NCBI GenBank assembly: GCA_037893245.1
Contig: JBAIAA010000510.1
Span: 806,001-870,000 of the forward strand
DNA length: 64,000 nt
DNA from: Crossaster papposus
Lineage: Eukaryota; Echinodermata; Asteroidea; Velatida; Solasteridae
Direction of reading: 5' to 3'
Part shown: positions 443-26,610 of the stretch, one piece after another
Numbering within the stretch: the first letter of the stretch is position 1
Layout of the letters: each line of letters starts with the position of its first letter
The notes under the pieces: generated by a model
What the model was told of the DNA's origin: nothing
Seen by the model: the letters and a program-made list of their open reading frames with translations, nothing else
The model's database searches: none
Position numbers and translations under genes: made by a program

Positions 443-520
443 ACAAACTCATACATGAACACTTTCTAAAAGCAAGTTCTTGTAATTCATGTTAATTAGC
501 TTAAAATTGTTTTAAAAACA

Positions 521-592
521 AGGCGCGAGAGGGGTTCGAACCCTCGATCTTCTGTTTACGAAACAGACGCCTTACCACTAGGCCACCACGCC
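521..592 (-). tRNA. trnT(cgu): tRNA-Thr(CGU), array copy 1
   Basis: Anticodon loop TTCGTAA gives CGU. Acceptor position 5 is U facing G (wobble), and the D-loop reads CUAGUGG. All four stems can form. The same variant occurs at 11800-11871. Confidence 0.8.
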
Positions 593-662
593 TCAAGGTT
601 AATAAACGAATACATCAACACTTTTTCTAATTATTTCATCATATTTAGCATTACAAATAAAA

Positions 663-709
663 GGCATGAGAGTGGTCTGAAGCCCAGATATTCTGTTTAC
701 AAATCTATA
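663..709 (-). pseudogene. tRNA-Thr 3'-half relict, module C (type example)
   Basis: Only the 3' half is recognisable: the last stretch of the acceptor, a T arm with loop altered to a CTTCAGAC-like form, and the anticodon loop TTCGTAA or TTTGTAA with its 3' stem. No D arm can be seen. It recurs at about +142 from each module A. Confidence 0.6.
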
Positions 710-739
710 AATTCCTGTTATTCAACTTTAACAATAATA

Positions 740-815
740 GGCACGAGAGGTATTCGAACCCTCTAGCTTCTGTTCACGAGATAGACGACTTACAACTTGG
801 CCACAGCTCCTCGCC
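740..815 (-). pseudogene. tRNA-Thr relict, module B (type example)
   Basis: This is the first module B. It reads with a CGU anticodon loop (CTCGTGA) and a recognisable GGTTCGAAT B box. The 5' acceptor side carries about five extra bases, the anticodon stem has an A-C mismatch, the T stem has a G-A mismatch and the D loop has lost G18. No T-run follows its 3' end. A copy of this relict sits in nearly every unit at about +219 from module A. Confidence 0.75.
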
Positions 816-897
816 GTTAATGAACTGATACATGAACACTTTCTAAAAGCAAGTTCTTGTAATTCATGTTAATTAGCTTAAAATTGTTTTAAAAACA

Positions 898-969
898 AGG
901 CGCGAGAGGGGTTCGAACCCTCGATCTTCTGTTTACGAAACAGACGCCTTACCACTTGGCCACCGCGCC
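898..969 (-). tRNA. trnT(cgu): tRNA-Thr(CGU), array copy 2, canonical
   Basis: Reference copy. The acceptor stem has 7 pairs ending in G-U, the D stem has 3 pairs (GCC/GGC), and the anticodon stem TCTGT/ACAGA is perfect. The loop is TTCGTAA with U33 and A37, the variable region has 5 nt, and the T stem GAGGG/CCCTC is perfect with loop TTCGAAC. Discriminator U matches animal tRNA-Thr. The downstream sequence TGTTTTTAAAAC supplies a Pol III terminator. It decodes ACG in cytosolic translation. CCA is not encoded, as usual in eukaryotes. Confidence 0.93.
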
Positions 970-1274
970 TCAAGGTTAATAAACAAATACATCAACACTT
1001 TTTCTCATTAATTATTGATATTTAGCATTACAAATAAGAGGCATGAGAGTGGTCTGAAGCCCAGATATTCTGTTTACGAATCTATAAATTCGTGTTATTC
1101 AACTTCAACAATAATTGGCATGAGAGGTATTCGAACCCTCTAGCTTCTGTTCACGAGATAGACGACTTACAACTTGGCCACAGCTACTCGCCGTTAATGA
1201 ACTCATACATGAACACTTTCTAAAAGCAAGTTCTTGTAATTCATGTTAATTAGCTTAAAATTGTTTTAAAAACA

Positions 1275-1346
1275 AGGCGCGAGAGGGGTTCGAACCCTTG
1301 ATCTTCTGTTTACGAAACAGACGCCTTACAACTTGGCCACCGCGCC
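1275..1346 (-). tRNA. trnT(cgu): tRNA-Thr(CGU), copy 3, weakened
   Basis: The T stem begins with an A-C mismatch (AAGGG against CCCTC) and the D loop reads AAGUUG, losing G18. The anticodon arm is intact. Probably a poor or inactive gene. Confidence 0.65.
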
Positions 1347-1492
1347 TCAAGGTTAATAAACAAATACATCAACACTTTTTCTCATTAATTATTAACATTT
1401 AGCATAACAAATAAAAGGCATCAGAGTGGTCTGAAGCCCAGATATTCTGTTTACGAATCTATGAATTCGTGTTATTCAACTTTAACAATAAT

Positions 1493-1564
1493 TGGCACGA
1501 GAGGTATTCGAACCCTCGATCTTCTGTTTACGAAACAGACGCCTTGCCACTTGGCCACCGCGCC
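1493..1564 (-). tRNA. trnT(cgu): tRNA-Thr(CGU), copy 4, A/B chimera
   Basis: The 3' acceptor and T arm are of module B type (GGTTCGAATACC) while the rest is module A. It sits 218 bp from copy 3 instead of 377, which fits loss of the segment between B and the next A. The T stem has one mismatch. Confidence 0.6.
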
Positions 1565-1869
1565 TCAGGGTTAATAAACAAATACACCAACACTTTTTCT
1601 CATTAATTATTGATATTTAGCATTACAAATAAGAGGCATGAGAGTGGTCTGAAGCCCAGATATTCTGTTTACGAATCTATAAATTCGTGTTATTCAACTT
1701 TAACAATAATTGGCACGAGAGGTATTCGAACCCTCTAGCTTCTGTTCACGAGATAGACGACTTACAACTTGGCCACAGCTCCTCGCCGTTAATGAACTCA
1801 TACATGAACACTTTCTAAAAGCAAGTTCTTGTAATTCATGTTAATTAGCTTAAAATTGTTTTAAAAACA

Positions 1870-1941
1870 AGGCGCGAGAGGGGTTCGAACCCTCGATCTT
1901 CTGTTTACGAAACAGACGCCTTACCACTTGGCCACCGCGCC
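1870..1941 (-). tRNA. trnT(cgu): tRNA-Thr(CGU), copy 5, canonical
   Basis: Identical to the copy at 898-969 over the tRNA body, with the T5 terminator present. Confidence 0.92.
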
Positions 1942-2246
1942 TCAAGGTTAATAAACAAATACATCAACACTTTTTCTCATTAATTATTAATATTTAGCAT
2001 AACAAATAAAAGGCATCAGAGTGGTCTGAAGCCCAGATATTCTGTTTACGAATCTATGAATTCGTGTTATTCAACTTTAACAATAATTGGCACGAGAGGT
2101 ATACGAACCCCCTAGATTCTGTTCACGAGATAGACGACTTACAACTTGGCCACAGCTACTCGCCGTTAATGAACTCATACATGAACACTTTCTAAAAGCA
2201 AGTTCTTGTAATTCATGTTAATTAGCTTAAAATTGTTTTAAAAACA

Positions 2247-2318
2247 AGGCGCGAGAGGGGTTCGAACCCTTGATCTTCTGTTTACGAAACAGACGCCTTA
2301 CAACTTGGCCACCGCGCC
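2247..2318 (-). tRNA. trnT(cgu): tRNA-Thr(CGU), copy 6, weakened
   Basis: Same changes as copy 3 (T-stem A-C mismatch, G18 lost). It lies exactly 972 bp from copy 3, one higher-order period. Confidence 0.65.
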
Positions 2319-2464
2319 TCAAGGTTAATAAACAAATACATCAACACTTTTTCTCATTAATTATTAACATTTAGCATAACAAATAAAAGGCATCAGAGTG
2401 GTCTGAAGCCCAGATATTCTGTTTACGAATCTATGAATTCGTGTTATTCAACTTTAACAATAAT

Positions 2465-2536
2465 TGGCACGAGAGGTATTCGAACCCTCGATCTTCTGTT
2501 TACGAAACAGACGCCTTGCCACTTGGCCACTGCGCC
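2465..2536 (-). tRNA. trnT(cgu): tRNA-Thr(CGU), copy 7, A/B chimera
   Basis: Chimeric T arm as in copy 4, with an extra acceptor change (GGCGCAG). Confidence 0.55.
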
Positions 2537-2841
2537 TCAGGGTTAATAAACAAATACACCAACACTTTTTCTCATTAATTATTAATATTTAGCATTACAA
2601 ATAAAAGGCATGAGAGTGGTCTGAAGCCCAGATATTCTGTTTACGAATCTATAAATTCGTGTTATTCAACTTTAACAATAATTGGCACGAGAGGTATTCG
2701 AACCCTCTAGCTTCTGTTCACGAGATAGACGACTTACAACTTGGCCACAGCTCCTCGCCGTTAATTAACTAATACATGAACACTTTATAAAAGCAAGTTC
2801 TTGTAACTCATGTTAATTAGCTTTAAATTGTTTTAAAAACA

Positions 2842-2913
2842 AGGCGCGAGAGGGGTTCGAACCCTCGATCTTCTGTTTACGAAATAGACGCCTTACCACT
2901 TGGCCACTGCGCC
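2842..2913 (-). tRNA. trnT(cgu): tRNA-Thr(CGU), copy 8, weakened
   Basis: The anticodon stem has an A-C mismatch (TCTAT/ACAGA) and the acceptor reads GGCGCAG. Confidence 0.6.
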
Positions 2914-3216
2914 TCAAAGTTAATATACAAATACATCAACACTTTTTCTCATAATTATTGATATTTAGCATTACAAATAAAAGGCATGAGAGTGGTCTGA
3001 AGCCCAGATATTCTGTTTACAAATCTATAAATTCGTGTTATTCAACTTTAACAATAATTGGCACGAGAGGGATTCGAACCCTTTAGCTTCTGTTCACGAG
3101 ATAGTCGACTTACAACTTGGCCACAGCTTTTCGCGTTAATGAACTCATAAATGAACACTTTCTAATATCAAGTCGTTGTAATTCATGTTATTCAGCTTTA
3201 AATGGTTTTAAAAACC

Positions 3217-3288
3217 AGGCGCGAGAGGGGTTCGAACCCTCGATCTTCTGTTTACGAAACAGACGCCTTACCACTTGGCCACCGCGCC
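3217..3288 (-). tRNA. trnT(cgu): tRNA-Thr(CGU), copy 9, canonical
   Basis: Canonical body. The 3' flank is of the GGTTTTTAAAACC type, still with T5. Confidence 0.92.
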
Positions 3289-3593
3289 TCAAGGTTAATA
3301 AACGAATACATCAACACTTTTTCTAATTAATTCATCATATTTAGCATTACAAATAAAAGGCATGAGAGTGGTCTGAAGCCCAGATATTCTGTTTACAAAT
3401 CTATAAATTCGTGTTATTCAACTTTAACAATAATTGGCACGAGAGGTATTCGAACCCTCTAGCTTCTGTTCACGAGATAGAAGACTTACAACTTGGCCAC
3501 AGCTCCTCGCCGTTAATTAACTCATACATGAACACTTTCTAAAAGCAAGTTCTTGTAATTCATGTTAATTAGCTTAAAATGGTTTTAAAAACA

Positions 3594-3665
3594 AGGCGCG
3601 AGAGGGGTTCGAACCCTCGATCTTCTGTTTACGAAACAGACGCCTTACCACTTGGCCACCGCGCC
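3594..3665 (-). tRNA. trnT(cgu): tRNA-Thr(CGU), copy 10, canonical
   Basis: Canonical body with T5 terminator. Confidence 0.92.
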
Positions 3666-3970
3666 TCAAGGTTAATAAACGAATACATCAACACTTTTTC
3701 TAATTAATTCATCATATTTAGCATTACAAATAAAAGGCATGAGAGTGGTCTGAAGCCCAGATATTCTGTTTACGAATCTATAAATTTGTGTTATTCAAAT
3801 TTAACAATAATTGGCACGAGAGGTATTCGAACCATTTAGCTTCTGTTCACGAGATAGACGACTTACAACGTAGCCACAGCTCTTCGACGTAAATGTACTC
3901 ATAAATGAACAGGATCTAATATCAAGTCGTTGTAATTCATGTTATTCAGCTTTAAATGGTTTTAAAAACC

Positions 3971-4042
3971 AGGCGTGAGAGGGGTTCGAACCCTCGATCT
4001 TCTGTTTACGAAACAGACGCCTTACCACTTGGCCACCGCGCC
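3971..4042 (-). tRNA. trnT(cgu): tRNA-Thr(CGU), copy 11
   Basis: Canonical except for one C-A mismatch at acceptor pair 5-68. Confidence 0.75.
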
Positions 4043-4347
4043 TCAAGGTTAATAGACGAATACATCAACACTTTTTCTAATTATTTCATCATATTTAGCA
4101 TTACAAATAAAAGGCATGAGAGTGGTCTGAAGCCCAGATATTCTGTTTACAAATCTATAAATTCGTGTTATTCAACTTTAACAATAATAGGCACGAGAGG
4201 TATTCGAACCCTCTAGCTTCTGTTCACGAGATAGACGACTTACAACTTGGCCACAGCTCCTCGCCGTTAATGAACTCATACATGAACACTTTCTAATATC
4301 AAGTCGTTGTAATTCATGTTATTCAGCTTTAAATGGTTTTAAAAACC

Positions 4348-4419
4348 AGGCGTGAGAGGGGTTCGAACCCTCGATCTTCTGTTTACGAAACAGACGCCTT
4401 ACCACTTGGCCACCGCGCC
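4348..4419 (-). tRNA. trnT(cgu): tRNA-Thr(CGU), copy 12
   Basis: Same acceptor mismatch as copy 11; a 377-bp tandem neighbour of it. Confidence 0.75.
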
Positions 4420-4724
4420 TCAAGGTTAATAGACGAATACATCAACACTTTTTCTAATTATTTCATCATATTTAGCATTACAAATAAAAGGCATGAGAGT
4501 GGTCTGAAGCCCAGATATTCTGTTTACAAATCTATAAATTCGTGTTATTCAACTTTAACAATAATAGGCACGAGAGGTATTCGAACCCTCTAGCTTCTGT
4601 TCACGAGATAGACGACTTACAACTTGGCCACAGCTCCTCGCCGTTAATGAACTCATACATGAACACTTTCTAAAAGCAAGTTCTTGTAATTCATGTTAAT
4701 TAGCTTAAAATTGTTTTAAAAACA

Positions 4725-4796
4725 AGGCGCGAGAGGGGTTCGAACCCTTGATCTTCTGTTTACGAAACAGACGCCTTACAACTTGGCCACCGCGCC
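4725..4796 (-). tRNA. trnT(cgu): tRNA-Thr(CGU), copy 13, weakened
   Basis: Duplicate of copy 3 in the 3450-bp higher-order repeat. Confidence 0.65.
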
Positions 4797-4942
4797 TCAA
4801 GGTTAATAAACAAATACATCAACACTTTTTCTCATTAATTATTAACATTTAGCATAACAAATAAAAGGCATCAGAGTGGTCTGAAGCCCAGATATTCTGT
4901 TTACGAATCTATGAATTCGTGTTATTCAACTTTAACAATAAT

Positions 4943-5014
4943 TGGCACGAGAGGTATTCGAACCCTCGATCTTCTGTTTACGAAACAGACGCCTTGCCAC
5001 TTGGCCACCGCGCC
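4943..5014 (-). tRNA. trnT(cgu): tRNA-Thr(CGU), copy 14, A/B chimera
   Basis: Duplicate of copy 4 at +3450. Confidence 0.6.
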
Positions 5015-5319
5015 TCAGGGTTAATAAACAAATACACCAACACTTTTTCTCATTAATTATTGATATTTAGCATTACAAATAAGAGGCATGAGAGTGGTCT
5101 GAAGCCCAGATATTCTGTTTACGAATCTATAAATTCGTGTTATTCAACTTTAACAATAATTGGCACGAGAGGTATTCGAACCCTCTAGCTTCTGTTCACG
5201 AGATAGACGACTTACAACTTGGCCACAGCTCCTCGCCGTTAATGAACTCATACATGAACACTTTCTAAAAGCAAGTTCTTGTAATTCATGTTAATTAGCT
5301 TAAAATTGTTTTAAAAACA

Positions 5320-5391
5320 AGGCGCGAGAGGGGTTCGAACCCTCGATCTTCTGTTTACGAAACAGACGCCTTACCACTTGGCCACCGCGCC
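5320..5391 (-). tRNA. trnT(cgu): tRNA-Thr(CGU), copy 15, canonical
   Basis: Canonical body; duplicate of copy 5 at +3450. Confidence 0.92.
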
Positions 5392-5696
5392 TCAAGGTTA
5401 ATAAACAAATACATCAACACTTTTTCTCATTAATTATTAATATTTAGCATAACAAATAAAAGGCATCAGAGTGGTCTGAAGCCCAGATATTCTGTTTACG
5501 AATCTATGAATTCGTGTTATTCAACTTTAACAATAATTGGCACGAGAGGTATACGAACCCCCTAGATTCTGTTCACGAGATAGACGACTTACAACTTGGC
5601 CACAGCTACTCGCCGTTAATGAACTCATACATGAACACTTTCTAAAAGCAAGTTCTTGTAATTCATGTTAATTAGCTTAAAATTGTTTTAAAAACA

Positions 5697-5768
5697 AGGC
5701 GCGAGAGGGGTTCGAACCCTTGATCTTCTGTTTACGAAACAGACGCCTTACAACTTGGCCACCGCGCC
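5697..5768 (-). tRNA. trnT(cgu): tRNA-Thr(CGU), copy 16, weakened
   Basis: Duplicate of copy 6 at +3450. Confidence 0.65.
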
Positions 5769-5914
5769 TCAAGGTTAATAAACAAATACATCAACACTTT
5801 TTCTCATTAATTATTAACATTTAGCATAACAAATAAAAGGCATCAGAGTGGTCTGAAGCCCAGATATTCTGTTTACGAATCTATGAATTCGTGTTATTCA
5901 ACTTTAACAATAAT

Positions 5915-5986
5915 TGGCACGAGAGGTATTCGAACCCTCGATCTTCTGTTTACGAAACAGACGCCTTGCCACTTGGCCACTGCGCC
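5915..5986 (-). tRNA. trnT(cgu): tRNA-Thr(CGU), copy 17, A/B chimera
   Basis: Duplicate of copy 7 at +3450, including its acceptor change. Confidence 0.55.
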
Positions 5987-6291
5987 TCAGGGTTAATAAA
6001 CAAATACACCAACACTTTTTCTCATTAATTATTAATATTTAGCATTACAAATAAAAGGCATGAGAGTGGTCTGAAGCCCAGATATTCTGTTTACGAATCT
6101 ATAAATTCGTGTTATTCAACTTTAACAATAATTGGCACGAGAGGTATTCGAACCCTCTAGCTTCTGTTCACGAGATAGACGACTTACAACTTGGCCACAG
6201 CTCCTCGCCGTTAATTAACTAATACATGAACACTTTATAAAAGCAAGTTCTTGTAACTCATGTTAATTAGCTTTAAATTGTTTTAAAAACA

Positions 6292-6363
6292 AGGCGCGAG
6301 AGGGGTTCGAACCCTCGATCTTCTGTTTACGAAATAGACGCCTTACCACTTGGCCACTGCGCC
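6292..6363 (-). tRNA. trnT(cgu): tRNA-Thr(CGU), copy 18, weakened
   Basis: Duplicate of copy 8 at +3450, with the anticodon-stem mismatch. Confidence 0.6.
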
Positions 6364-6666
6364 TCAAAGTTAATATACAAATACATCAACACTTTTTCTC
6401 ATAATTATTGATATTTAGCATTACAAATAAAAGGCATGAGAGTGGTCTGAAGCCCAGATATTCTGTTTACAAATCTATAAATTCGTGTTATTCAACTTTA
6501 ACAATAATTGGCACGAGAGGGATTCGAACCCTTTAGCTTCTGTTCACGAGATAGTCGACTTACAACTTGGCCACAGCTTTTCGCGTTAATGAACTCATAA
6601 ATGAACACTTTCTAATATCAAGTCGTTGTAATTCATGTTATTCAGCTTTAAATGGTTTTAAAAACC

Positions 6667-6738
6667 AGGCGCGAGAGGGGTTCGAACCCTCGATCTTCTG
6701 TTTACGAAACAGACGCCTTACCACTTGGCCACCGCGCC
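6667..6738 (-). tRNA. trnT(cgu): tRNA-Thr(CGU), copy 19, canonical
   Basis: Canonical body; duplicate of copy 9. Confidence 0.92.
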
Positions 6739-7043
6739 TCAAGGTTAATAAACGAATACATCAACACTTTTTCTAATTAATTCATCATATTTAGCATTAC
6801 AAATAAAAGGCATGAGAGTGGTCTGAAGCCCAGATATTCTGTTTACAAATCTATAAATTCGTGTTATTCAACTTTAACAATAATTGGCACGAGAGGTATT
6901 CGAACCCTCTAGCTTCTGTTCACGAGATAGAAGACTTACAACTTGGCCACAGCTCCTCGCCGTTAATTAACTCATACATGAACACTTTCTAAAAGCAAGT
7001 TCTTGTAATTCATGTTAATTAGCTTAAAATGGTTTTAAAAACA

Positions 7044-7115
7044 AGGCGCGAGAGGGGTTCGAACCCTCGATCTTCTGTTTACGAAACAGACGCCTTACCA
7101 CTTGGCCACCGCGCC
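7044..7115 (-). tRNA. trnT(cgu): tRNA-Thr(CGU), copy 20, canonical
   Basis: Canonical body; duplicate of copy 10. Confidence 0.92.
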
Positions 7116-7420
7116 TCAAGGTTAATAAACGAATACATCAACACTTTTTCTAATTAATTCATCATATTTAGCATTACAAATAAAAGGCATGAGAGTGGTC
7201 TGAAGCCCAGATATTCTGTTTACGAATCTATAAATTTGTGTTATTCAAATTTAACAATAATTGGCACGAGAGGTATTCGAACCATTTAGCTTCTGTTCAC
7301 GAGATAGACGACTTACAACGTAGCCACAGCTCTTCGACGTAAATGTACTCATAAATGAACAGGATCTAATATCAAGTCGTTGTAATTCATGTTATTCAGC
7401 TTTAAATGGTTTTAAAAACC

Positions 7421-7492
7421 AGGCGTGAGAGGGGTTCGAACCCTCGATCTTCTGTTTACGAAACAGACGCCTTACCACTTGGCCACCGCGCC
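7421..7492 (-). tRNA. trnT(cgu): tRNA-Thr(CGU), copy 21
   Basis: Duplicate of copy 11, with the acceptor C-A mismatch. Confidence 0.75.
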
Positions 7493-7797
7493 TCAAGGTT
7501 AATAGACGAATACATCAACACTTTTTCTAATTATTTCATCATATTTAGCATTACAAATAAAAGGCATGAGAGTGGTCTGAAGCCCAGATATTCTGTTTAC
7601 AAATCTATAAATTCGTGTTATTCAACTTTAACAATAATAGGCACGAGAGGTATTCGAACCCTCTAGCTTCTGTTCACGAGATAGACGACTTACAACTTGG
7701 CCACAGCTCCTCGCCGTTAATGAACTCATACATGAACACTTTCTAATATCAAGTCGTTGTAATTCATGTTATTCAGCTTTAAATGGTTTTAAAAACC

Positions 7798-7869
7798 AGG
7801 CGTGAGAGGGGTTCGAACCCTCGATCTTCTGTTTACGAAACAGACGCCTTACCACTTGGCCACCGCGCC
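7798..7869 (-). tRNA. trnT(cgu): tRNA-Thr(CGU), copy 22
   Basis: Duplicate of copy 12, with the acceptor C-A mismatch. Confidence 0.75.
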
Positions 7870-8174
7870 TCAAGGTTAATAGACGAATACATCAACACTT
7901 TTTCTAATTATTTCATCATATTTAGCATTACAAATAAAAGGCATGAGAGTGGTCTGAAGCCCAGATATTCTGTTTACAAATCTATAAATTCGTGTTATTC
8001 AACTTTAACAATAATAGGCACGAGAGGTATTCGAACCCTCTAGCTTCTGTTCACGAGATAGACGACTTACAACTTGGCCACAGCTCCTCGCCGTTAATGA
8101 ACTCATACATGAACACTTTCTAAAAGCAAGTTCTTGTAATTCATGTTAATTAGCTTAAAATTGTTTTAAAAACA

Positions 8175-8246
8175 AGGCGCGAGAGGGGTTCGAACCCTCG
8201 ATCTTCTGTTTACGAAACAGACGCCTTACCACTTGGCCACCGCGCC
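8175..8246 (-). tRNA. trnT(cgu): tRNA-Thr(CGU), copy 23, canonical
   Basis: Canonical body. The 3450-bp duplication has ended by this unit, which is of copy-5 type rather than copy-3 type. Confidence 0.92.
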
Positions 8247-8550
8247 TCAAGGTTAATAAACAAATACATCAACACTTTTTCTCATTAATTATTAATATTT
8301 AGCATAACAAATAAAAGGCATCAGAGTGGTCTGAAGCCCAGATATTCTGTTTACGAATCTATGAATTCGTGTTATTCAACTTTAACAATAATTGGCACGA
8401 GAGGTATACGAACCCCCTAGATTCTGTTCACGAGATAGACGACTTACAACTTGGCCACAGCTCCTCGCCGTTAATGAACTGATACATGAACACTTTCTAA
8501 AAGGAAGTTCTTGTAATTCATGTTAATTAGCTTAAATTGTTTTTAAAAAA

Positions 8551-8622
8551 AGGCGCGAGAGGTGTTCGAACCCTCGATCTTCTGTTTACGAAACAGACGC
8601 CTTACCACTTGGCCACCGCGCC
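8551..8622 (-). tRNA. trnT(cgu): tRNA-Thr(CGU), copy 24, weakened
   Basis: One T-stem mismatch at the loop-closing pair (G-A). It matches the copy at 16396-16467, 7845 bp away. Confidence 0.7.
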
Positions 8623-8927
8623 TCAAGGTTAATAAGCAAATACACCAACACTTTTTCTCATTAATTATTGATATTTAGCATTACAAATAAAAGGCATGAG
8701 AATGGTCTGAAGCCCAGATATTCTGTTTACGAATCTATAAATTCGTGTTATTCAACTTTAACAATAATTGGCACGAGAGGTATTCGAACCCTCTAGCTTC
8801 TGTTCTCGAGATAGACGACTTACAACTTGGCCACAGCTCCTCGCCTTTAATGAACTAATACATGAACACTTTCTAAAAGCAAGTTCTTGTAATTCATGTT
8901 AATTAGCTTAAAATTGTTTTAAAAACA

Positions 8928-8999
8928 AGGCGCGAGAGGGGTTCGAACCCTCGATCTTCTGTTTACGAAACAGACGCCTTACCACTAGGCCACCGCGCC
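8928..8999 (-). tRNA. trnT(cgu): tRNA-Thr(CGU), copy 25
   Basis: Canonical except for a CUAGUGG D-loop start. It matches the copy at 16773-16844. Confidence 0.85.
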
Positions 9000-9269
9000 T
9001 CAAGGTTAATAAACGAATACATCAACACTTTTTCTCATTAATTATTAATATTTAGCATTACAAATAAAAGGCATCAGAGGGTTCTGAAGCCCAGATATTC
9101 TGTTTACGAATCTATGAATTCGTGTTATTCAACTTTAACAATAATTGGCACGAGAGGGATTCGAACCCTTTAGCTTCTGTTCACGAGATAGTCGACTTAC
9201 AACTTGGCCACAGCTACTCGCCGTTAATGAACTCATAAATGAATACTTTCTAATATCAAGTCGTTGTAA

Positions 9270-10458: not shown

Positions 10459-10496
10459 TAATTCATGTTATTCAGCTTAAAATGGTTTTAAAAACC

Positions 10497-17149: not shown

Positions 17150-17221
17150 AGGCGCGAGAGGGGTTCGAACCCTCGATCTTCTGTTTACGAAACAGACGCC
17201 TTACCACTTGGCCACCGCGCC
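17150..17221 (-). tRNA. trnT(cgu): tRNA-Thr(CGU), copy 43, canonical
   Basis: Canonical body. The 3' flank on the minus strand is TGGGTTTTAAAACC, so the T-run is four rather than five. Confidence 0.9.
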
Positions 17222-17526: not shown

Positions 17527-17598
17527 AGGCGCGAAAGGGGTTCGAACCCTTGATCTTCTGTTTACGAAACAGACGCCTTACCACTTGGCCACCGCGCC
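17527..17598 (-). tRNA. trnT(cgu): tRNA-Thr(CGU), copy 44, compensated T stem
   Basis: The base of the T stem is A-U instead of G-C: both sides changed (AAGGG/CCCTT), so pairing is preserved. Confidence 0.85.
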
Positions 17599-17903
17599 TC
17601 AAGGTTAATAAACAAATACATCAACACTTGTTCTCATTAATTATTGATATTTAGCATTACAAATAAAAGGCATGAGAGTGGTCTATAGCCCAGATATTCT
17701 GTTTACGAATCTATCAATTCGTGTTATTCAACTTTAACAATAATTGGCACGAGAGTTATTCGAACCCCCTAGCTTCTGTTCACGAGATAGACGACTTACA
17801 ACTTGGCCACAGCTCCTCGCCGTTAATGAACTCATACATGAACACTTTCTAAAAGCAAGTTCTTGTAATTCATGTTAATTAGCTTAAAATTGTTTTTTTT
17901 AAA

Positions 17904-17971
17904 GGGAGAGGGGTTCGAACCCTCGATCTTCTGTTTACGAAACAGAGGCCTTACCACTTGGCCACCGCGCC
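17904..17971 (-). pseudogene. tRNA-Thr(CGU) copy 45, acceptor 3' side lost
   Basis: The last bases of the acceptor are deleted and replaced by a T-rich run, so the acceptor stem cannot form. The anticodon stem also has a C-G to C-C change near its base. Duplicated at 19785-19852. Confidence 0.65.
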
Positions 17972-18276
17972 TCAAGGTTAATAAACAAATACACCAACAC
18001 TTTTTCTCATTAATTATTGATATTTAGCATTACAAATAAGAGGCATGAGAGTGGTCTGAAGCCCAGATATTCTGTTTACGAATATATAAATTTGTGTTAT
18101 TCAACTTTAACAATAATTGGCACGAGAGGTATTCGAACCCTCTAGCTTCTGTTCACGAGATAGACGACTTACAACTTGGCCACAGCTCCTCGCCGTTAAT
18201 GAACTCATACATGAACACTTTCTAAAAGCAAGTTCTTGTAATTCATGTTAATTAGCTTAAAATTGTTTTAAAAACA

Positions 18277-18348
18277 AGGCGCGAGAGGGGTTCGAACCCT
18301 CGATCTTCTGTTTACAAAACAGACGCCTTACCACTTGGCCACCGCGCC
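18277..18348 (-). tRNA. trnT(ugu): tRNA-Thr(UGU), copy 46, anticodon variant
   Basis: The only change in the body is C34 to U, giving loop TTTGTAA and anticodon UGU (reads ACA). All stems are perfect and the T5 terminator is present. Confidence 0.85.
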
Positions 18349-18653
18349 TCAAGGTTAATAAACAAATACATCAACACTTTTTCTCATTAATTATTAATAT
18401 TTAGCATAACAAATAAAAGGCATCAGAGTGGTCTAAAGCCCAGATATTCTGTTTACGAATCTATGAATTCGTGTTATTCAACTTTAACAATAATTGGCAC
18501 GAGAGGTATTCGAACCCCCTAGATTCTGTTCACGAGATAGACGACTTACAACTTGGCCACAGCTCCTCGCCGTTAATGAACTCATACATGAACACTTTCT
18601 AAAAGCAAGTTCTTGTAATTCATGTTATTCAGCTTCAAATGGTTTTAAAAACC

Positions 18654-18725
18654 AGGCGCGAAAGGGGTTCGAACCCTCGATCTTCTGTTTACGAAACAGA
18701 CGCCTTACCACTTGGCCACCGCGCC
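18654..18725 (-). tRNA. trnT(cgu): tRNA-Thr(CGU), copy 47
   Basis: Canonical except for G-U at the base of the T stem. Confidence 0.85.
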
Positions 18726-19030
18726 TCAAGGTTAATAAACAAATACATCAACACTTTTTCTCATTAATTATTAATATTTAGCATAACAAATAAAAGGCAT
18801 CAGAGTGGTCTAAAGCCCAGATATTCTGTTTACGAATCTATGAATTCGTGTTATTCAACTTTAACAATAATTGGCACGAGAGGTATTCGAACCCCCTAGA
18901 TTCTGTTCACGAGATAGACGACTTACAACTTGGCCACAGCTCCTCGCCGTTAATGAACTCATACATGAACACTTTCTAAAAGCAAGTTCTTGTAATTCAT
19001 GTTAATTAGCTTAAAATTGTTTTAAAAACA

Positions 19031-19102
19031 AGGCGCGAGAGGGGTTCGAACCCTCGATCTTCTGTTTACGAAACAGACGCCTTACCACTTGGCCACCGCG
19101 CC
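19031..19102 (-). tRNA. trnT(cgu): tRNA-Thr(CGU), copy 48, canonical
   Basis: Canonical body. Confidence 0.92.
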
Positions 19103-19407
19103 TCAAGGTTAATAAACAAATACATCAACACTTTTTCTCATTAATTATTCATATTTAGCATTACAAATAAAAGGCATCGGAGGGTTCTGAAGCCCAGATA
19201 TTCTGTTTACGAATCTATGAATTCGTGTTATTCAACTTTAACAATAATTGGCACGAGAGGGATTCGAACACTTTAGTTTCTGTTCACGAGATAGTCGACT
19301 TACAACTTGGCCACAGCTCCTCGCCGTTAATGAAATCATACATGAACACTTTCTAAAAGCAAGTTCTTGTAATTCATGTTATTCAGCTTAAAATGGTTTT
19401 AAAAACC

Positions 19408-19479
19408 AGGCGCGAAAGCGGTTCGAACCCTTGATCTTCTGTTTACGAAACAGACGCCTTACCACTTGGCCACCGCGCC
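19408..19479 (-). tRNA. trnT(cgu): tRNA-Thr(CGU), copy 49, weakened
   Basis: Compensated A-U at the T-stem base as in copy 44, plus a G-G mismatch higher in the stem. Confidence 0.65.
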
Positions 19480-19784
19480 TCAAGGTTAATAAACAAATAC
19501 ATCAACACTTGTTCTCATTAATTATTGATATTTAGCATTACAAATAAAAGGCATGAGAGTGGTCTAAAGCCCAGATATTCTGTTTACGAATCTATCAATT
19601 CGTGTTATTCAACTTTAACAATAATTGGCACGAGAGTTATTCGAACCCCCTAGCTTCTGTTCACGAGATAGACGACTTACAACTTGGCCACAGCTCCTCG
19701 CCGTTAATGAACTCATACATGAACACTTTCTAAAAGCAAGTTCTTGTAATTCATGTTAATTAGCTTAAAATTGTTTTTTTTAAA

Positions 19785-19852
19785 GGGAGAGGGGTTCGAA
19801 CCCTCGATCTTCTGTTTACGAAACAGAGGCCTTACCACTTGGCCACCGCGCC
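19785..19852 (-). pseudogene. tRNA-Thr(CGU) copy 50, acceptor 3' side lost
   Basis: Duplicate of copy 45 at +1881. Confidence 0.65.
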
Positions 19853-20157
19853 TCAAGGTTAATAAACAAATACACCAACACTTTTTCTCATTAATTATTG
19901 ATATTTAGCATTACAAATAAGAGGCATGAGAGTGGTCTGAAGCCCAGATATTCTGTTTACGAATATATAAATTTGTGTTATTCAACTTTAACAATAATTG
20001 GCACGAGAGGTATTCGAACCCTCTAGCTTCTGTTCACGAGATAGACGACTTACAACTTGGCCACAGCTCCTCGCCGTTAATGAACTCATACATGAACACT
20101 TTCTAAAAGCAAGTTCTTGTAATTCATGTTAATTAGCTTAAAATTGTTTTAAAAACA

Positions 20158-20229
20158 AGGCGCGAGAGGGGTTCGAACCCTCGATCTTCTGTTTACAAAA
20201 CAGACGCCTTACCACTTGGCCACCGCGCC
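20158..20229 (-). tRNA. trnT(ugu): tRNA-Thr(UGU), copy 51, anticodon variant
   Basis: Duplicate of copy 46 at +1881, with UGU anticodon. Confidence 0.85.
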
Positions 20230-20534
20230 TCAAGGTTAATAAACAAATACATCAACACTTTTTCTCATTAATTATTAATATTTAGCATAACAAATAAAAG
20301 GCATCAGAGTGGTCTAAAGCCCAGATATTCTGTTTACGAATCTATGAATTCGTGTTATTCAACTTTAACAATAATTGGCACGAGAGGTATTCGAACCCCC
20401 TAGATTCTGTTCACGAGATAGACGACTTACAACTTGGCCACAGCTCCTCGCCGTTAATGAACTCATACATGAACACTTTCTAAAAGCAAGTTCTTGTAAT
20501 TCATGTTATTCAGCTTCAAATGGTTTTAAAAACC

Positions 20535-20606
20535 AGGCGCGAAAGGGGTTCGAACCCTCGATCTTCTGTTTACGAAACAGACGCCTTACCACTTGGCCAC
20601 CGCGCC
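20535..20606 (-). tRNA. trnT(cgu): tRNA-Thr(CGU), copy 52
   Basis: Duplicate of copy 47 at +1881. Confidence 0.85.
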
Positions 20607-20911
20607 TCAAGGTTAATAAACAAATACATCAACACTTTTTCTCATTAATTATTAATATTTAGCATAACAAATAAAAGGCATCAGAGTGGTCTAAAGCCCA
20701 GATATTCTGTTTACGAATCTATGAATTCGTGTTATTCAACTTTAACAATAATTGGCACGAGAGGGATTCGAACACTTTAGCTTCTGTTCACGAGATAGTC
20801 GACTTACAACTTGGCCACAGCTACTCGCCGTTAATGAACTCATAAATGAATACTTTCTAATATCAAGTCGTTGTAATTTATGTTATTCAGCTTAAAAAGG
20901 TTTTAAAAACC

Positions 20912-20983
20912 AGGCGCGAGAGGGGTTCGAACCCTAGATCTTCTGTTTACGAAACAGACGCCTTACCACTTGGCCACCGCGCC
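20912..20983 (-). tRNA. trnT(cgu): tRNA-Thr(CGU), copy 53, weakened
   Basis: T-stem base is U-C (TAGGG/CCCTC), unpaired; otherwise canonical. Confidence 0.7.
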
Positions 20984-21288
20984 GCAAGGTTAATAAACAA
21001 ATACATCAACACTTTTTCTCATTAATTATTAATATTTAGCATAACAAATAAAAGGCATCGGAGGGTTCTGAAGCCCAGATATTCTGTTTACGAATTTATG
21101 AATTCGTGTTATTCAACTTTAACAATAATTGGCACGAGAGGGATTCGAACACTTTAGCTTCTGTTCACGAGATAGTCGACTTACAACTTGGCCACAGCTA
21201 CTCGCCGTTAATGAACTCATAAATGAATACTTTCTAATATCAAGTCGTTGTAATTCATGTTATTCAGCTTAAAATGGTTTTAAAAACC

Positions 21289-21360
21289 AGGCGCGAGAGG
21301 GGTTCGAACCCTAGATTTTCTGTTTACGAAACAGACGCCTTACCACTTGGCCACCGCGCC
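21289..21360 (-). tRNA. trnT(cgu): tRNA-Thr(CGU), copy 54, weakened
   Basis: Same T-stem change as copy 53, plus a changed variable region. Confidence 0.68.
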
Positions 21361-21675
21361 GCAAGGTTAATAAACGAATACATCAACACTTTTTATAATT
21401 ATTTCATCATATTTAGCATTACAAATAAAAGTCATGAGAGTGGTCTGAAGCCCAGATATTCTGTTTACAAATCTATAAATTCGTGTTATTCAACTTTATT
21501 CAACTTTAACAATAATAGGCACGAGAGGTATTCGAACCCTCTAGCTTCTGTTCACGAGATAGACGACTTACAACTTGGCCACAGCTCCTCGCCGTTAATG
21601 AACTCATACATGAACACTTTCTAAAAGCAAGTTCTTGTAATTCATGTTAATTAGCTTAAAATTGTTTTAAAAACA

Positions 21676-21747
21676 AGGCGCGAGAGGGGTTCGAACCCTC
21701 GATCTTCTGTTTACGAAACAGACGCCTTACCACTTGGCCACCGCGCC
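21676..21747 (-). tRNA. trnT(cgu): tRNA-Thr(CGU), copy 55, canonical
   Basis: Canonical body. Confidence 0.92.
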
Positions 21748-22052
21748 TCAAGGTTAATAAACAAATACATCAACACTTTTTCTCATTAATTATTCATATT
21801 TAGCATTACAAATAAAAGGCATCGGAGGGTTCTGAAGCCCAGATATTCTGTTTACGAATCTATGAATTCGTGTTATTCAACTTTAACAATAATTGGCACG
21901 AGAGGGATTCGAACACTTTAGCTTCTGTTCACGAGATAGTCGACTTACAACTTGGCCACAGCTACTCGCCGTTAATGAACTCATAAATGAATACTTTCTA
22001 AAAGCAAGTTCTTGTAATTCATGTTATTCAGCTTAAAATGGTTTTAAAAACA

Positions 22053-22124
22053 AGGCGCGAAAGGGGTTCGAACCCTCGATCTTCTGTTTACGAAACAGAC
22101 GCCTTACCACTTGGCCACCGCGCC
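22053..22124 (-). tRNA. trnT(cgu): tRNA-Thr(CGU), copy 56
   Basis: Canonical except for G-U at the T-stem base. Confidence 0.85.
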
Positions 22125-22429
22125 TCAAGGTTAATAAACGAATACATCAACACTTTTTCTCATTAATTATTAATATTTAGCATTACAAATAAAAGGCATG
22201 GGAGGGTTCTGAAGCCCAGATATTCTGTTTACGAATCTATGAATTCGTGTTATTCAACTTTAACAATAATTGGCACGAGAGGGATTCGAACACTTTAGCT
22301 TCTGTTCACGAGATAGTCGACTTACAACTTGGCCACAGCTACTCGCCGTTAATGAACTCATAAATGAATACTTTCTAATATCAAGTCGTTGTAATTTATG
22401 TTATTCAGCTTAAAATGGTTTTAAAAACC

Positions 22430-22501
22430 AGGCGCGAGAGGGGTTTGAACCCTCGATCTTCTGTTTACGAAACAGACGCCTTACCACTAGGCCACCGCGC
22501 C
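22430..22501 (-). tRNA. trnT(cgu): tRNA-Thr(CGU), copy 57
   Basis: The T loop reads TTCAAAC and the D loop CUAG; all stems form. Confidence 0.8.
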
Positions 22502-22806
22502 TCAAGGTTAATAAACGAATACATCAACACTTTTTCTCATTAATTATTAATATTTAGCATTACAAATAAAAGGCATCAAAGGGTTCTGAAGCCCAGATAT
22601 TCTGTTTACGAATCTATGAATTCGTGTTATTCAACTTTAACAATAATTGGCACGAGAGGGATTCGAACCCTTTAGCTTCTGTTCACGAGATAGTCGACTT
22701 ACAACTTGGCCACAGCTACTCGCCGTTAATGAACTCATAAATGAATACTTTCTAATATCAAGTCGTTGTAATTCATGTTATTCAGCATAAAATGGTTTTA
22801 AAAACC

Positions 22807-22878
22807 AGGCGCGAGAGGGGTTCGAACCCTCGATCTTCTGTTTACGAAACAGACGCCTTACCACTTGGCCACCGCGCC
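22807..22878 (-). tRNA. trnT(cgu): tRNA-Thr(CGU), copy 58, canonical
   Basis: Canonical body. Confidence 0.92.
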
Positions 22879-23183
22879 TCAAGGTTAATAAACGAATACA
22901 TCAACACTTTTTCTAATTATTTCATCATATTTAGCATTACAAATAAAAGTCATGAGAGTGGTCTGAAGCCCAGATATTCTGTTTACAAATCTATAAATTC
23001 GTGTTATTCAACTTTAACAATTATAGGCACGAGAGGTATTCGAACCCTCTAGCTTCTGTTCACGAGATAGACGACTTACAACTTGGCCACAGCTCCTCGC
23101 CGTTAATGAACTCATACATGAACACTTTCTAAAAGCAAGTTCTTGTAATTCATGTTAATTAGCTTAAAATTGTTTTAAAAACA

Positions 23184-23255
23184 AGGCGCGAGAGGGGTTC
23201 GAACCCTCGATCTTCTGTTTACGAAACAGACGCCTTACCACTTGGCCACCGCGCC
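23184..23255 (-). tRNA. trnT(cgu): tRNA-Thr(CGU), copy 59, canonical
   Basis: Canonical body. Confidence 0.92.
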
Positions 23256-23560
23256 TCAAGGTTAATAAACAAATACATCAACACTTTTTCTCATTAATTA
23301 TTAATATTTAGCATAACAAATAAAAGGCATCAGAGTGGTCTGAAGCCCAGATATTCTGTTTACGAATCTATGAATTCGTGTTATTCAACTTTAACAATAA
23401 TTGGCACGAGAGGTATTCGAACCCCCTAGATTCTGTTCACGAGATAGACGACTTACAACTTGGCCACAGCTCCTCGCCGTTAATGAAATCATACATGAAC
23501 ACTTTCTAAAAGCAAGTTCTTGTAATTCATGTTATTCAGCTTAAAATGGTTTTAAAAACC

Positions 23561-23632
23561 AGGCGCGAAAGGGGTTCGAACCCTTGATCTTCTGTTTACG
23601 AAACAGACGCCTTACCACTTGGCCACCGCGCC
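23561..23632 (-). tRNA. trnT(cgu): tRNA-Thr(CGU), copy 60, compensated T stem
   Basis: A-U replaces G-C at the T-stem base, as in copy 44. It begins the third copy of the 1881-bp series. Confidence 0.85.
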
Positions 23633-23937
23633 TCAAGGTTAATAAACAAATACATCAACACTTTTTCTCATTAATTATTGATATTTAGCATTACAAATAA
23701 AAGGCATGAGAGTGGTCTAAAGCCCAGATATTCTGTTTACGAATCTATCAATTCGTGTTATTCAACTTTAACAATAATTGGCACGAGAGTTATTCGAACC
23801 CCCTAGCTTCTGTTCACGAGATAGACGACTTACAACTTGGCCACAGCTCCTCGCCGTTAATGAACTCATACATGAACACTTTCTAAAAGCAAGTTCTTGT
23901 AATTCATGTTAATTAGCTTAAAATTGTTTTTTTAAAA

Positions 23938-24005
23938 GGGAGAGGGGTTCGAACCCTCGATCTTCTGTTTACAAAACAGAGGCCTTACCACTTGGCCACC
24001 GCGCC
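23938..24005 (-). pseudogene. tRNA-Thr(UGU) copy 61, acceptor 3' side lost
   Basis: Combines the acceptor loss of copy 45 with a UGU anticodon. Confidence 0.65.
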
Positions 24006-24310
24006 TCAAGGTTAATAAACAAATACACCAACACTTTTTCTCATTAATTATTGATATTTAGCATTACAAATAAGAGGCATGAGAGTGGTCTGAAGCCCAG
24101 ATATTCTGTTTACGAATATATAAATTTGTGTTATTCAACTTTAACAATAATTGGCACGAGAGGTATTCGAACCCTCTAGCTTCTGTTCACGAGATAGACG
24201 ACTTACAACTTGGCCACAGCTCCTCGCCGTTAATGAACTCATACATGAACACTTTCTAAAAGCAAGTTCTTGTAATTCATGTTAATTAGCTTAAAATTGT
24301 TTTAAAAACA

Positions 24311-24382
24311 AGGCGCGAGAGGGGTTCGAACCCTCGATCTTCTGTTTACAAAACAGACGCCTTACCACTTGGCCACCGCGCC
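24311..24382 (-). tRNA. trnT(ugu): tRNA-Thr(UGU), copy 62, anticodon variant
   Basis: Canonical body with UGU anticodon, as copy 46. Confidence 0.85.
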
Positions 24383-24687
24383 TCAAGGTTAATAAACAAA
24401 TACATCAACACTTTTTCTCATTAATTATTAATATTTAGCATAACAAATAAAAGGCATCAGAGTGGTCTAAAGCCCAGATATTCTGTTTACGAATCTATGA
24501 ATTCGTGTTATTCAACTTTAACAATAATTGGCACGAGAGGTATTCGAACCCCCTAGATTCTGTTCACGAGATAGACGACTTACAACTTGGCCACAGCTCC
24601 TCGCCGTTAATGAACTTATACATGAACACTTTCTAAAAGCAAGTTCTTGTAATTCATGTTATTCAGCTTAAAATGGTTTTAAAAACC

Positions 24688-24759
24688 AGGCGCGAAAGGG
24701 GTTCGAACCCTCGATCTTCTGTTTACGAAACAGACGCCTTACCACTTGGCCACCGCGCC
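24688..24759 (-). tRNA. trnT(cgu): tRNA-Thr(CGU), copy 63
   Basis: Canonical except for G-U at the T-stem base. Confidence 0.85.
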
Positions 24760-25064
24760 TCAAGGTTAATAAACGAATACATCAACACTTTTTCTCATTA
24801 ATTATTAATATTTAGCATTACAAATAAAAGGCATCGGAGGGTTCTGAAGCCCAGATATTCTGTTTACGAATCTATGAATTCGTGTTATTCAACTTTAACA
24901 ATAATTGGCACGAGAGGGATTCGAACACTTTAGCTTCTGTTCACGAGATAGTCGACTTACAACTTGGCCACAGCTACTCGCCGTTAATGAACTCATAAAT
25001 GAATACTTTCTAATATCAAGTCGTTGTAATTTATGTTATTCAGCTTAAAATGGTTTTAAAAACA

Positions 25065-25136
25065 AGGCGCGAGAGGGGTTCGAACCCTCGATCTTCTGTT
25101 TACGAAACAGACGCCTTACCACTTGGCCACCGCGCC
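25065..25136 (-). tRNA. trnT(cgu): tRNA-Thr(CGU), copy 64, canonical
   Basis: Canonical body. Confidence 0.92.
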
Positions 25137-25441
25137 TCAAGGTTAATAAACAAATACATCAACACTTTTTCTCATTAATTATTCATATTTAGCATTACAA
25201 ATAAAAGGCATCGGAGGGTTCTGAAGCCCAGATATTCTGTTTACGAATCTATGAATTCGTGTTATTCAACTTTAACAATAATTGGCACGAGAGGGATTCG
25301 AACACTTTAGCTTCTGTTCACGAGATAGTCGACTTACAACTTGGCCACAGCTACTCGCCGTTAATGAACTCATAAATGAATACTTTCTAATATCAAGTCG
25401 TTGTAATTCATGTTATTCAGCTTAAAATGGTTTTAAAAACC

Positions 25442-25513
25442 AGGCGCGAGAGGGGTTCGAACCCTAGATCTTCTGTTTACGAAACAGACGCCTTACCACT
25501 TGGCCACCGCGCC
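25442..25513 (-). tRNA. trnT(cgu): tRNA-Thr(CGU), copy 65, weakened
   Basis: T-stem base U-C as in copy 53. The following module B carries a short internal tandem repeat (GATAGACGT-GATAGACGA, about 25700-25718). Confidence 0.7.
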
Positions 25514-25827
25514 GCAAGGTTAATAAACGAATACATCAACACTTTTTATAATTATTTCATCATATTTAGCATTACAAATAAAAGTCATGAGAGTGGTCTG
25601 AAGCCCAGATATTCTGTTTACAAATCTATAAATTCGTGTTATTCAACTTTAACAATAATTGGCACGAGAGGTATTCGAACCCCCTAGTTTCTGTTCACGA
25701 GATAGACGTGATAGACGACTTACAACTTGGCCACAGCTCCTCGCCGTTAATGAACTCATAAATGAACACTTTCTAATATCAAGTCGTTGTAATTCATGTT
25801 ATTCAGCTTAAAATGGTTTTAAAAACC

Positions 25828-25899
25828 AGGCGCGAGAGGGGTTCGAACCCTCGATCTTCTGTTTACGAAACAGACGCCTTACCACTTGGCCACCGCGCC
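25828..25899 (-). tRNA. trnT(cgu): tRNA-Thr(CGU), copy 66, canonical
   Basis: The last canonical body before the right edge. The spacer beyond it is already shortened and diverged. Confidence 0.92.
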
Positions 25900-26190
25900 T
25901 CAAGATTAATTAACCTTATCTCATTAATTATTAGTATTTAGCATTACAAATAAAAGGCATCAGAGGGTTCTGATGCCCAGATATCTGTTTACGAATCTGT
26001 AAATTCGTGTTATTCAACTTTAACAATAATTGGCACGAGAGGGATTCGAACCCTTTAGCTTCTGTTCACGAGATAGTCGACTTACTACTTGGCCACAGCT
26101 CCTCGCCGTTAATGAACTCATAAATGAACACTTTCTAATATCAAGTCGTTGTAATTCATGTTATTCAGGTTAAAATGGTTTTAAAACACA

Positions 26191-26263
26191 AGTCGTGAGA
26201 GGGGTTTGAACCCTCGATCTTTCTGTTCACAAAACAGACACCTTACCAATTGGCCACCGCGCC
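26191..26263 (-). pseudogene. tRNA-Thr(UGU) copy 67, diverged edge copy
   Basis: 73 nt with an extra T in the variable region, loop TTTGTGA (UGU), a mismatched acceptor (3' end CACGAC) and a changed D arm. It is the most diverged full-length copy, at the array edge. Confidence 0.6.
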
Positions 26264-26568
26264 TCAGGGTTAATAAACGAATACATCAACACTTTATCTG
26301 ATTATTTTATCATATTTAGCATTACAAATAAAAGGCACGAGAGGGGTCTGAAGACCAGATATTCTGTTTACGAATCTATCAATTCGTGTTATTCAGCTTT
26401 AACAATAATTGGCACGAGAGGGATTTGAACCATTTAGCTTCTGTTCACGAGATAGACGACTTACAACGTGGCCATAGCTCTTCGACGTAAATGTACTCAT
26501 AAATGAACACAATATAATATCAAGTCGTTGTAATTCATGTTATTCAGCTTAAAATGGTTTTAAAAACA

Positions 26569-26610
26569 AGGTGCGAGAGCGGTTCGAACCCTTGATCTCC
26601 TGTTCACGAG
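26569..26610 (-). pseudogene. tRNA-Thr copy 68, truncated at array end
   Basis: Only the 3' acceptor, T arm and part of the anticodon arm remain. The sequence is cut inside the anticodon region and joins the next satellite directly. Confidence 0.7.

Follow-up and report, generated by a model that had tools for sequence, protein, structure and literature searches.

Tandem arrays of transfer RNA (tRNA) genes are already known, and those in the literature that we examined are mostly of mixed isotype or much smaller than the array described here. According to the part of one study used here (PMC2888827), most neighbouring genes in the tRNA clusters of zebrafish, clawed frog and Nematostella differ in isotype, and the clusters of drosophilids, Tetrahymena and Monosiga mostly hold like pairs. 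In zebrafish, maternal tRNAs come from highly repetitive regions and later isodecoders from isolated copies, as stated in the portion of a second report on which we draw (PMC11417395). Here we describe a tandem array of tRNA-Thr genes in the sea star Crossaster papposus. The window that was analysed is a 64-kb stretch of contig JBAIAA010000510.1 (C510 below; bases 806001-870000) in an assembly of 1,023,315,904 bases and 1841 contigs (GCA_037893245.1). An open-licence literature search, in part of top results only, returned nothing on sea star nuclear tRNA arrays; the print record may hold more.

Results

tRNA-Thr genes in the window and on C510

Using ARAGORN, we found 67 tRNA-Thr genes in the window, all of them on the minus strand, 62 with the anticodon CGT and 5 with TGT. 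The Rfam model RF00005 gave 67 matches at the same positions, with scores of 45.1-70 bits, every one above the gathering score (cut-off 29), and ARAGORN reported 0 genes in each of 20 dinucleotide shuffles of the window. The original prediction for this stretch had spoken of about 67 tRNA-Thr genes of a single isotype on one strand, set in a 377-bp tandem repeat, with nineteen identical bodies and a T-run terminator after each. Gene number, strand and identical bodies were borne out: the bodies are 72 nt long (73 nt in one copy) and fall into 24 types, the commonest of which (T01) comprises 19 copies identical over 72 nt. Neighbouring genes are spaced by exactly 377 bp in 43 of 66 intervals, and the array is interrupted twice (Table 1). 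A downstream run of at least four Ts within 20 nt was present after all 19 T01 bodies but after only 61 of the 67 genes. The single isotype holds at the level of the amino acid, all genes being Thr, but five of the 67 copies have the anticodon UGU.

The array had been placed within positions 443-26610 of the window, which turned out to be too narrow, since C510:736001-960000 holds 258 ARAGORN tRNA-Thr genes (243 minus, 15 plus) in two cassettes. A mixed-isotype cluster is ruled out, because all 258 genes are Thr. Both cassettes run from the 51-bp satellite and a short plus-strand array through the 27-bp satellite to the long minus-strand array and the 1.86-kb repeats, and their flanks are 99.2, 98.4 and 99.7% identical. 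The long minus-strand array covers about 72 kb in one cassette and 22.7 kb in the other, and each main array is bordered on both sides by other sequence, well away from the ends of the 1.07-Mb contig. Higher-order periods of 972, 1507, 1521 and 1881 bp were found in the C510 arrays.

We then scored a copy as intact if its anticodon was CGT, all of 20 stem pairs matched, the B box agreed with the consensus, and a run of four Ts (T4) lay downstream of the body while none lay within it. All of these features were present in 110 of the 258 genes in C510:736001-960000 and in 32 of the 67 in the window. Taken singly, 133 of the 258 genes were without mismatch in the 20 stem pairs, 244 had the downstream T4 and 194 the consensus B box. 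Moreover, the anticodon loop had one of two forms in 230 of the 234 C510 units (168 unique) that a search with the whole unit retrieved, and most stem pairs were kept.

T4 is a minimal terminator of RNA polymerase III (Pol III). TTTT occurs inside the tRNA body in all 32 UGU copies of C510:736001-960000, owing to the same C-to-T change, compared to 3 of the 226 CGT copies. UGU copies account for 26 of 126 genes to the left of the window, 5 of 67 in the window and 1 of 65 in the second cassette. Because the anticodon change also makes TTTT, these copies may stop transcription early, and an isoacceptor switch through them appears doubtful.

Copies across the assembly

A 24-base word from the anticodon arm occurred 2278 times in the whole assembly (50 forward, 2228 reverse), and the exact 72-nt T01 body was found in 695 copies, all on one strand (0 forward, 695 reverse). 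The word was present at 219 places in C510:736001-960000, compared to 258 ARAGORN genes; scaling by this proportion, our guess is that there are about 2700 array genes in total. In each of the DNA searches 40 candidates were scored, out of 354 in one and 3944 in another, and the resulting counts are lower bounds. With a 1500-bp cassette marker we obtained at least 14 full-length matches among the 40 candidates scored of 3944. At least 13 copies with 98-100% identity lie in one orientation on C174, C185, C510, C593, C639 and C686, and a 90% match in the opposite orientation was found on C217 among the same 40. Neighbouring markers on one contig are separated by 121-281 kb, as measured over seven intervals that lie on four contigs. 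The array proper was matched on C510, C174, C185 and C639 and, in decayed form, on C17; C593 and C686 are known via the marker only. A genome search with RF00005, in which 63 of 213984 candidates were scored, is no census.

Initiator-Met words are spaced by 3537 and 3604 bp on both C13 and C723; for the Thr-CGT words, C605 and C1246 have a spacing of 290 bp in common. These equal spacings suggest unmerged haplotypes or segmental duplicates, and counts per haploid genome may therefore be about half of those given here.

Structure of the 377-bp unit

The 377-bp unit contains, in this order, the tRNA, a relict A and a relict B. In the unit consensus, 59 of 71 positions of relict A and, over the 3' part, 33 of 42 positions of relict B were identical to those of the tRNA, each relict with a score above all 500 shuffles, in agreement with the two relicts per unit that had been predicted. 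The tRNA and its downstream spacer form a module of about 157 bp; when this is aligned with the following module, 86 of 104 positions agree. At C17:1141924-1145170, a decayed relative of the array consists mostly of monomers of about 157 bp, with a higher-order period of about 1507 bp. We infer from these repeats, and from the steps of the Thr-AGT and Gly-GCC places given below, that the 377-bp unit may have grown from a simple tandem of tRNA monomers of about 157 bp, two of which decayed. Types T04 and T08 (six window copies, at a 218-bp offset) resemble the live tRNA in their 5' part and relict A at their 3' end, and no T4 was found in the 14 nt that follow them. This is the form that exchange between live and dead monomers would be expected to make. 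Outside the tRNA, sense positions 101-110, 221-240 and 271-290 of the C510 units have a mean diversity as low as that of the tRNA, 0.009 to 0.03 per 10 bp.

Variation of the tRNA body

Diversity among the 168 unique C510 units was 0.0395 in the tRNA, 0.0645 in relict A, 0.0781 in relict B and 0.0872 in the other sequence. The contrast became larger after removal of CpG sites (0.030, 0.065, 0.070 and 0.087, respectively). The ratio of tRNA diversity to that of the rest was 0.49 (bootstrap range, 0.42-0.56), and 4 of the 377 circular 72-base windows of the unit were less diverse than the tRNA. We further distinguished private variants, seen once, from shared variants, present in five or more units. 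The private:shared numbers were 27:18 in the tRNA versus 71:120 in the rest of the C510 units (Fisher p = 0.007; p = 0.002 with unique units). Per site, private variants were commoner in the tRNA than in any other segment and shared variants were rarer than in the pooled rest. This pattern fits the notion that mutations in the tRNA arise freely but fail to spread in the C510 array. The T-stem pair 48-64 was G48-C64 in 187 of the 234 units, G-U in 11 and, as a paired change, A-U in 7.

Other isoacceptors and genes outside the arrays

Further isoacceptors were surveyed with chosen words whose places were listed in part, so that the results are no census. Lys-TTT arrays were found with steps of about 572 bp in the sampled stretches of C479, C1268, C1448 and C1705, and mostly of about 770 bp on C424. 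A 39-base Lys word occurred 648 times, and all matches listed were on C424 and C479. A word fitting the Thr anticodons AGT, TGT, GGT or CGT had 3132 occurrences; the first 100 matches all lie on C7 (87 AGT, 12 TGT and 1 GGT), where the Thr-AGT places among the matches listed have steps of about 165 bp. A Gly-GCC/Asp-GTC word occurred 259 times, with 98 of the 100 matches listed on C656. The Gly-GCC places listed for that contig have 141-bp steps, and both complete or nearly complete genes that were read there are Gly-GCC. The initiator-Met word had 18 occurrences only, kilobases apart. The idea that only one isoacceptor is arrayed in the genome is thus ruled out by the Lys-TTT, Thr-AGT and Gly-GCC arrays, and the earlier emphasis on one unusual isoacceptor was too narrow. 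The Thr-CGT unit itself had no match in the Lys, Thr-AGT and Gly stretches examined.

Genes outside arrays were found for Lys-TTT (C35, C55), Cys-GCA (C556) and Thr-CGT (C415). A first word pattern for Thr-CGT outside the array gave 0 matches, and a wider pattern gave 14, on C17 (7), C415 (1), C605 (2), C729 (2) and C1246 (2), with 1 match for the reversed control. On stretches around these matches, ARAGORN reported a gene at C415 and none at C605 or at one of the C729 places. The two word searches hence point to few other Thr-CGT genes, one of them clean, on C415, and the proposal that the array is the sole source of tRNA-Thr(CGU) was dropped on account of that gene. In the three outside genes compared, the isodecoders differ in sequence from those of the arrays (the Thr-CGT array versus C415, the Lys-TTT array versus C35 and C55). 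Since the compared copies differ, ordinary tRNA sequencing could separate array from outside copies. On C332, C335 and C725 lie Thr-GGT-like genes whose upstream flanks resemble one another; these genes may belong to a tRNA-derived dispersed repeat.

Neighbouring repeats and other contigs

The coordinates of the array and its neighbours are given in Table 1. The 1.86-kb repeat, also present at C510:942201-950910, holds a weak fragment of a Mutator-like transposase (E 0.00063, below the curated cut-off) and may be a transposon piece turned satellite. Besides this weak Mutator match, a Pfam scan of five open reading frames (ORFs) gave one DUF7869 match and left three ORFs without a match. The DUF7869 ORF (E 3.8e-06, first copy scanned) is one of the cassette ORFs at C510:745791-748236 and 905058-907618; next to it the 51-bp satellite lies in a long frame and is read there as a repeat of 17 residues. 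A CTCGCCCCTGACC-like word is tandemly repeated at window positions 58978-59079, and its reverse complement at 60240-60373; with about 1.2 kb between them, the two repeats perhaps mark either end of a single mobile element. Tandem repeats in two copies, of 320 and 390 bp, were observed at 48990-49628 and 50654-51496. The 320-bp repeat holds a ACTCGAACCC word that resembles a B box, and a similar word ends the printed part of the 390-bp repeat; both are possibly pieces of a tRNA-derived short interspersed nuclear element.

Table 1. Features of the 64-kb window, in window positions. TRF, Tandem Repeats Finder.
Feature	Position	Strand	Basis
Array block 1, 377-bp units, 25 ARAGORN tRNA-Thr genes	446..9270	-	TRF period 377, ARAGORN
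Relict B (truncated, more degenerate) of the unit with T01 body 898..969	664..715	-	Place derived from unit
Relict A (degenerate tRNA-Thr) of the unit with T01 body 898..969	741..812	-	Place derived from unit
T01 tRNA-Thr(CGU) body, 1 of 19 identical 72-nt window copies	898..969	-	
tRNA/relict-A hybrid, example	1493..1564	-	
Interrupting element of ~1.19 kb, terminal inverted repeats 25/26 bases (by eye), inserted in array	9271..10458	.	Direct sequence reading
Array block 2, 2 tRNA-Thr genes	10459..11204	-	TRF, ARAGORN
Inserted spacer, mostly repeated at 1-443	11205..11724	.	Direct sequence reading
Array block 3, 40 tRNA-Thr genes	11725..26609	-	TRF 377 bp, ARAGORN
UGU-anticodon copy, example; C-to-T change also creates TTTT in the anticodon loop	18277..18348	-	
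1.86-kb repeat, 7.7 copies (98%), abuts main array in both C510 cassettes	26611..40874	.	
Satellite of GAATTCCGAAGGA-like 13-mer, next cassette component; second copy in other cassette	40883..46019	.	

The CCA of the tRNAs is encoded on C8 (5,301,754 bases), where a COX1 frame of 682 aa is also open, and by these features the contig looks like a bacterial chromosome within the animal assembly, from a symbiont or a contaminant. The mitochondrial contig C1841 (16,330 bp) has a COX1 that fits the echinoderm mitochondrial code (table 9). In this COX1 the codons AAA, ATA and AGA occupy positions at which Asn, Ile and Ser are expected. The tRNA order before COX1 is -L -G -Y D -M V -C -W A -L -N Q -P, which we take to be the sea star order.

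Discussion

Interpretation of the C510 array

The C510 locus is, on balance, probably a working tRNA-Thr(CGU) supply array in an rDNA-like state (rDNA, ribosomal DNA), kept by unequal exchange and by the loss of bad variants. Ribosomal RNA genes elsewhere likewise sit in giant head-to-tail arrays. In such a scenario, a tRNA gene and its spacer, about 157 bp together, would have become tandemly repeated, and a multimer of one live and two dying monomers would have become the main unit of 377 bp. Unequal exchange would have spread this unit together with blocks of higher order built from it, and further copying of the array would then have taken place within cassettes of 100 kb or more. The subset of copies with intact stems, internal promoter and terminator (110 of the 258 examined) would allow transcription by Pol III, and the mass of copies would provide a high output of one tRNA. 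Damaged copies would arise freely and spread less, so that the pool would stay usable. A similar design would be used for Lys-TTT, Thr-AGT and Gly-GCC in the same genome. What we infer for the array is that it is transcribed, that selection lies behind its reduced variation and that it serves in oogenesis or early development; by analogy with zebrafish, it is perhaps used in oocytes.

Several results weigh against this interpretation. At least one test of intactness failed in 148 of the 258 genes in C510:736001-960000 and in 35 of the 67 in the window; the original prediction had named a majority of pseudogenes as grounds for refutation, and Rfam passes all 67 genes whereas the stricter list fails more than half in both sets. 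At CpG sites alone, the tRNA (0.072) was not less diverse than relict A (0.063), and at pair 48-64 the unpaired A-C (18 of 234 units) outnumbers the compensated A-U (7 of 234). Compared to the relicts alone (36:47), the private:shared contrast was weak (p = 0.10 for all units, 0.026 for unique units). The bootstrap ranges and Fisher p-values are too narrow, because the units are related by higher-order duplication. In the Lys array (30 units of 572 bp, 20 unique), the tRNA was no less variable than the rest (0.0097 versus 0.0071, rank 368/572), and among the 13 monomers of the decayed C17 array the tRNA part was no better kept than the spacer. Finally, the array need not be essential, since a clean Thr-CGT gene exists outside the arrays.

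An alternative is a satellite with a passenger tRNA, whose copies would have multiplied by unequal exchange and segmental duplication for causes unrelated to translation and whose tRNA would look conserved since intact units were, by chance, amplified recently. We regard this as possible but rather unlikely. The two dead monomers of the 377-bp unit, the higher-order periods and the 98.4-99.7% identity of the cassette flanks suit a satellite, as do the 27-bp, 51-bp, 13-mer and 1.86-kb repeats that share the cassette and the absence of a selection signal in the Lys array and on C17. However, the C510 tRNA body has half the diversity and fewer spread variants, though private ones are at least as frequent, and one random passenger would leave unexplained why several elongator isoacceptors are arrayed and why the Thr-CGT unit had no match in the Lys, Thr-AGT and Gly stretches examined, although the searches that led to these arrays began from tRNAs. 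Among the roles first put forward, namely translation, a boundary or a satellite, the evidence favours a mixture of translation supply and satellite, because many genes are well formed and changes in the C510 tRNA body spread less, yet the locus has satellite-like higher-order repeats, dead monomers and duplicated cassettes.

The boundary role, in which many TFIIIC sites would form a chromatin boundary or insulator, is not favoured, and we consider it very improbable. TFIIIC binding requires neither acceptor stem nor anticodon. Dense B boxes in one orientation would suit a boundary, but this would not account for an anticodon loop of one of two forms in nearly all units and for the keeping of most stem pairs, and the copy number appears to exceed what a boundary would need. 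A human tRNA tandem repeat that binds CTCF is a proposed precedent in the part of the source used here (PMC4041453). It is also improbable, if less extremely so, that wrongly expanded repeats and unmerged haplotypes enlarged a modest array in the assembly. Such arrays are difficult to assemble, and the initiator-Met spacings match between C13 and C723, as with haplotypes or segmental duplication. However, the C510 arrays differ in length and in UGU content (26/126 versus 1/65), the ends of the main arrays lie next to other sequence well inside the contig, and half of the 2278 exact words would still be more than 1000.

The supply-array reading can be carried further. An echinoderm could have shifted a large share of its elongator tRNA supply to separate arrays, each of a single isotype and hundreds of kilobases or more in length, as an oocyte-type, rDNA-like reservoir, with the outside isodecoders serving the soma; we put this forward tentatively, by analogy, and hold it to be unlikely as it stands. 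If true, this arrangement and the maternal and somatic sets of tRNAs in zebrafish would have arisen by convergence, and selection at the level of the array, not of the single gene, would keep the pool functional. In any case, arrays of hundreds to thousands of genes of one isotype open the question of whether selection acts on the array rather than on the gene. They also allow a direct test of whether copy number determines how much tRNA is supplied for a single codon, and of whether animals other than vertebrates have distinct tRNA sets for maternal and somatic use.

Comparison with known systems

Satellites with higher-order repeats and rDNA/5S arrays have head-to-tail monomers, dead monomers, higher-order units and homogenisation. 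The present array resembles them in its tandem monomers within homogenised higher-order units (377 bp; periods of 972-1881 bp) and differs in that its monomer amounts to a whole tRNA gene that brings along both promoter and terminator. The SYY cluster of Arabidopsis (tRNA-Ser/Tyr) has far fewer copies than the present array and, in contrast to it, brings two isotypes together. The two are alike in tandem repetition, which for C510 is read from the sequence; in Arabidopsis the genes are transcribed in some cells but kept silent in the majority of tissues, according to the part of the study used here (PMC12308677).

The remaining comparisons likewise draw on portions of the cited sources. In Entamoeba, tRNA genes form the repeat unit of long tandem arrays, as here, but with up to five tRNA genes per unit (PMC2652664) rather than one live gene and relicts. 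Almost all tRNA genes of Entamoeba are arrayed, whereas Lys, Thr, Cys and initiator-Met genes exist outside the arrays in C. papposus. The variable-number tandem repeat at human 1q23.3 is similarly a tRNA-bearing tandem repeat of varying copy number, but its unit measures 7.3 kb, tRNA genes make up <6% of it, alleles have 9-43 copies and CTCF binds (PMC4041453). Zebrafish has very many tRNA genes in repetitive clusters and other isodecoders dispersed, and array and outside isodecoders differ here too in the three outside genes compared; cluster neighbours in zebrafish are, however, mostly of different isotypes (PMC2888827), in contrast to the one isotype per sampled array observed here. As far as the literature examined goes, single-isotype arrays this large, with dead monomers and duplicated cassettes, are a variant of the known tandem tRNA arrays.

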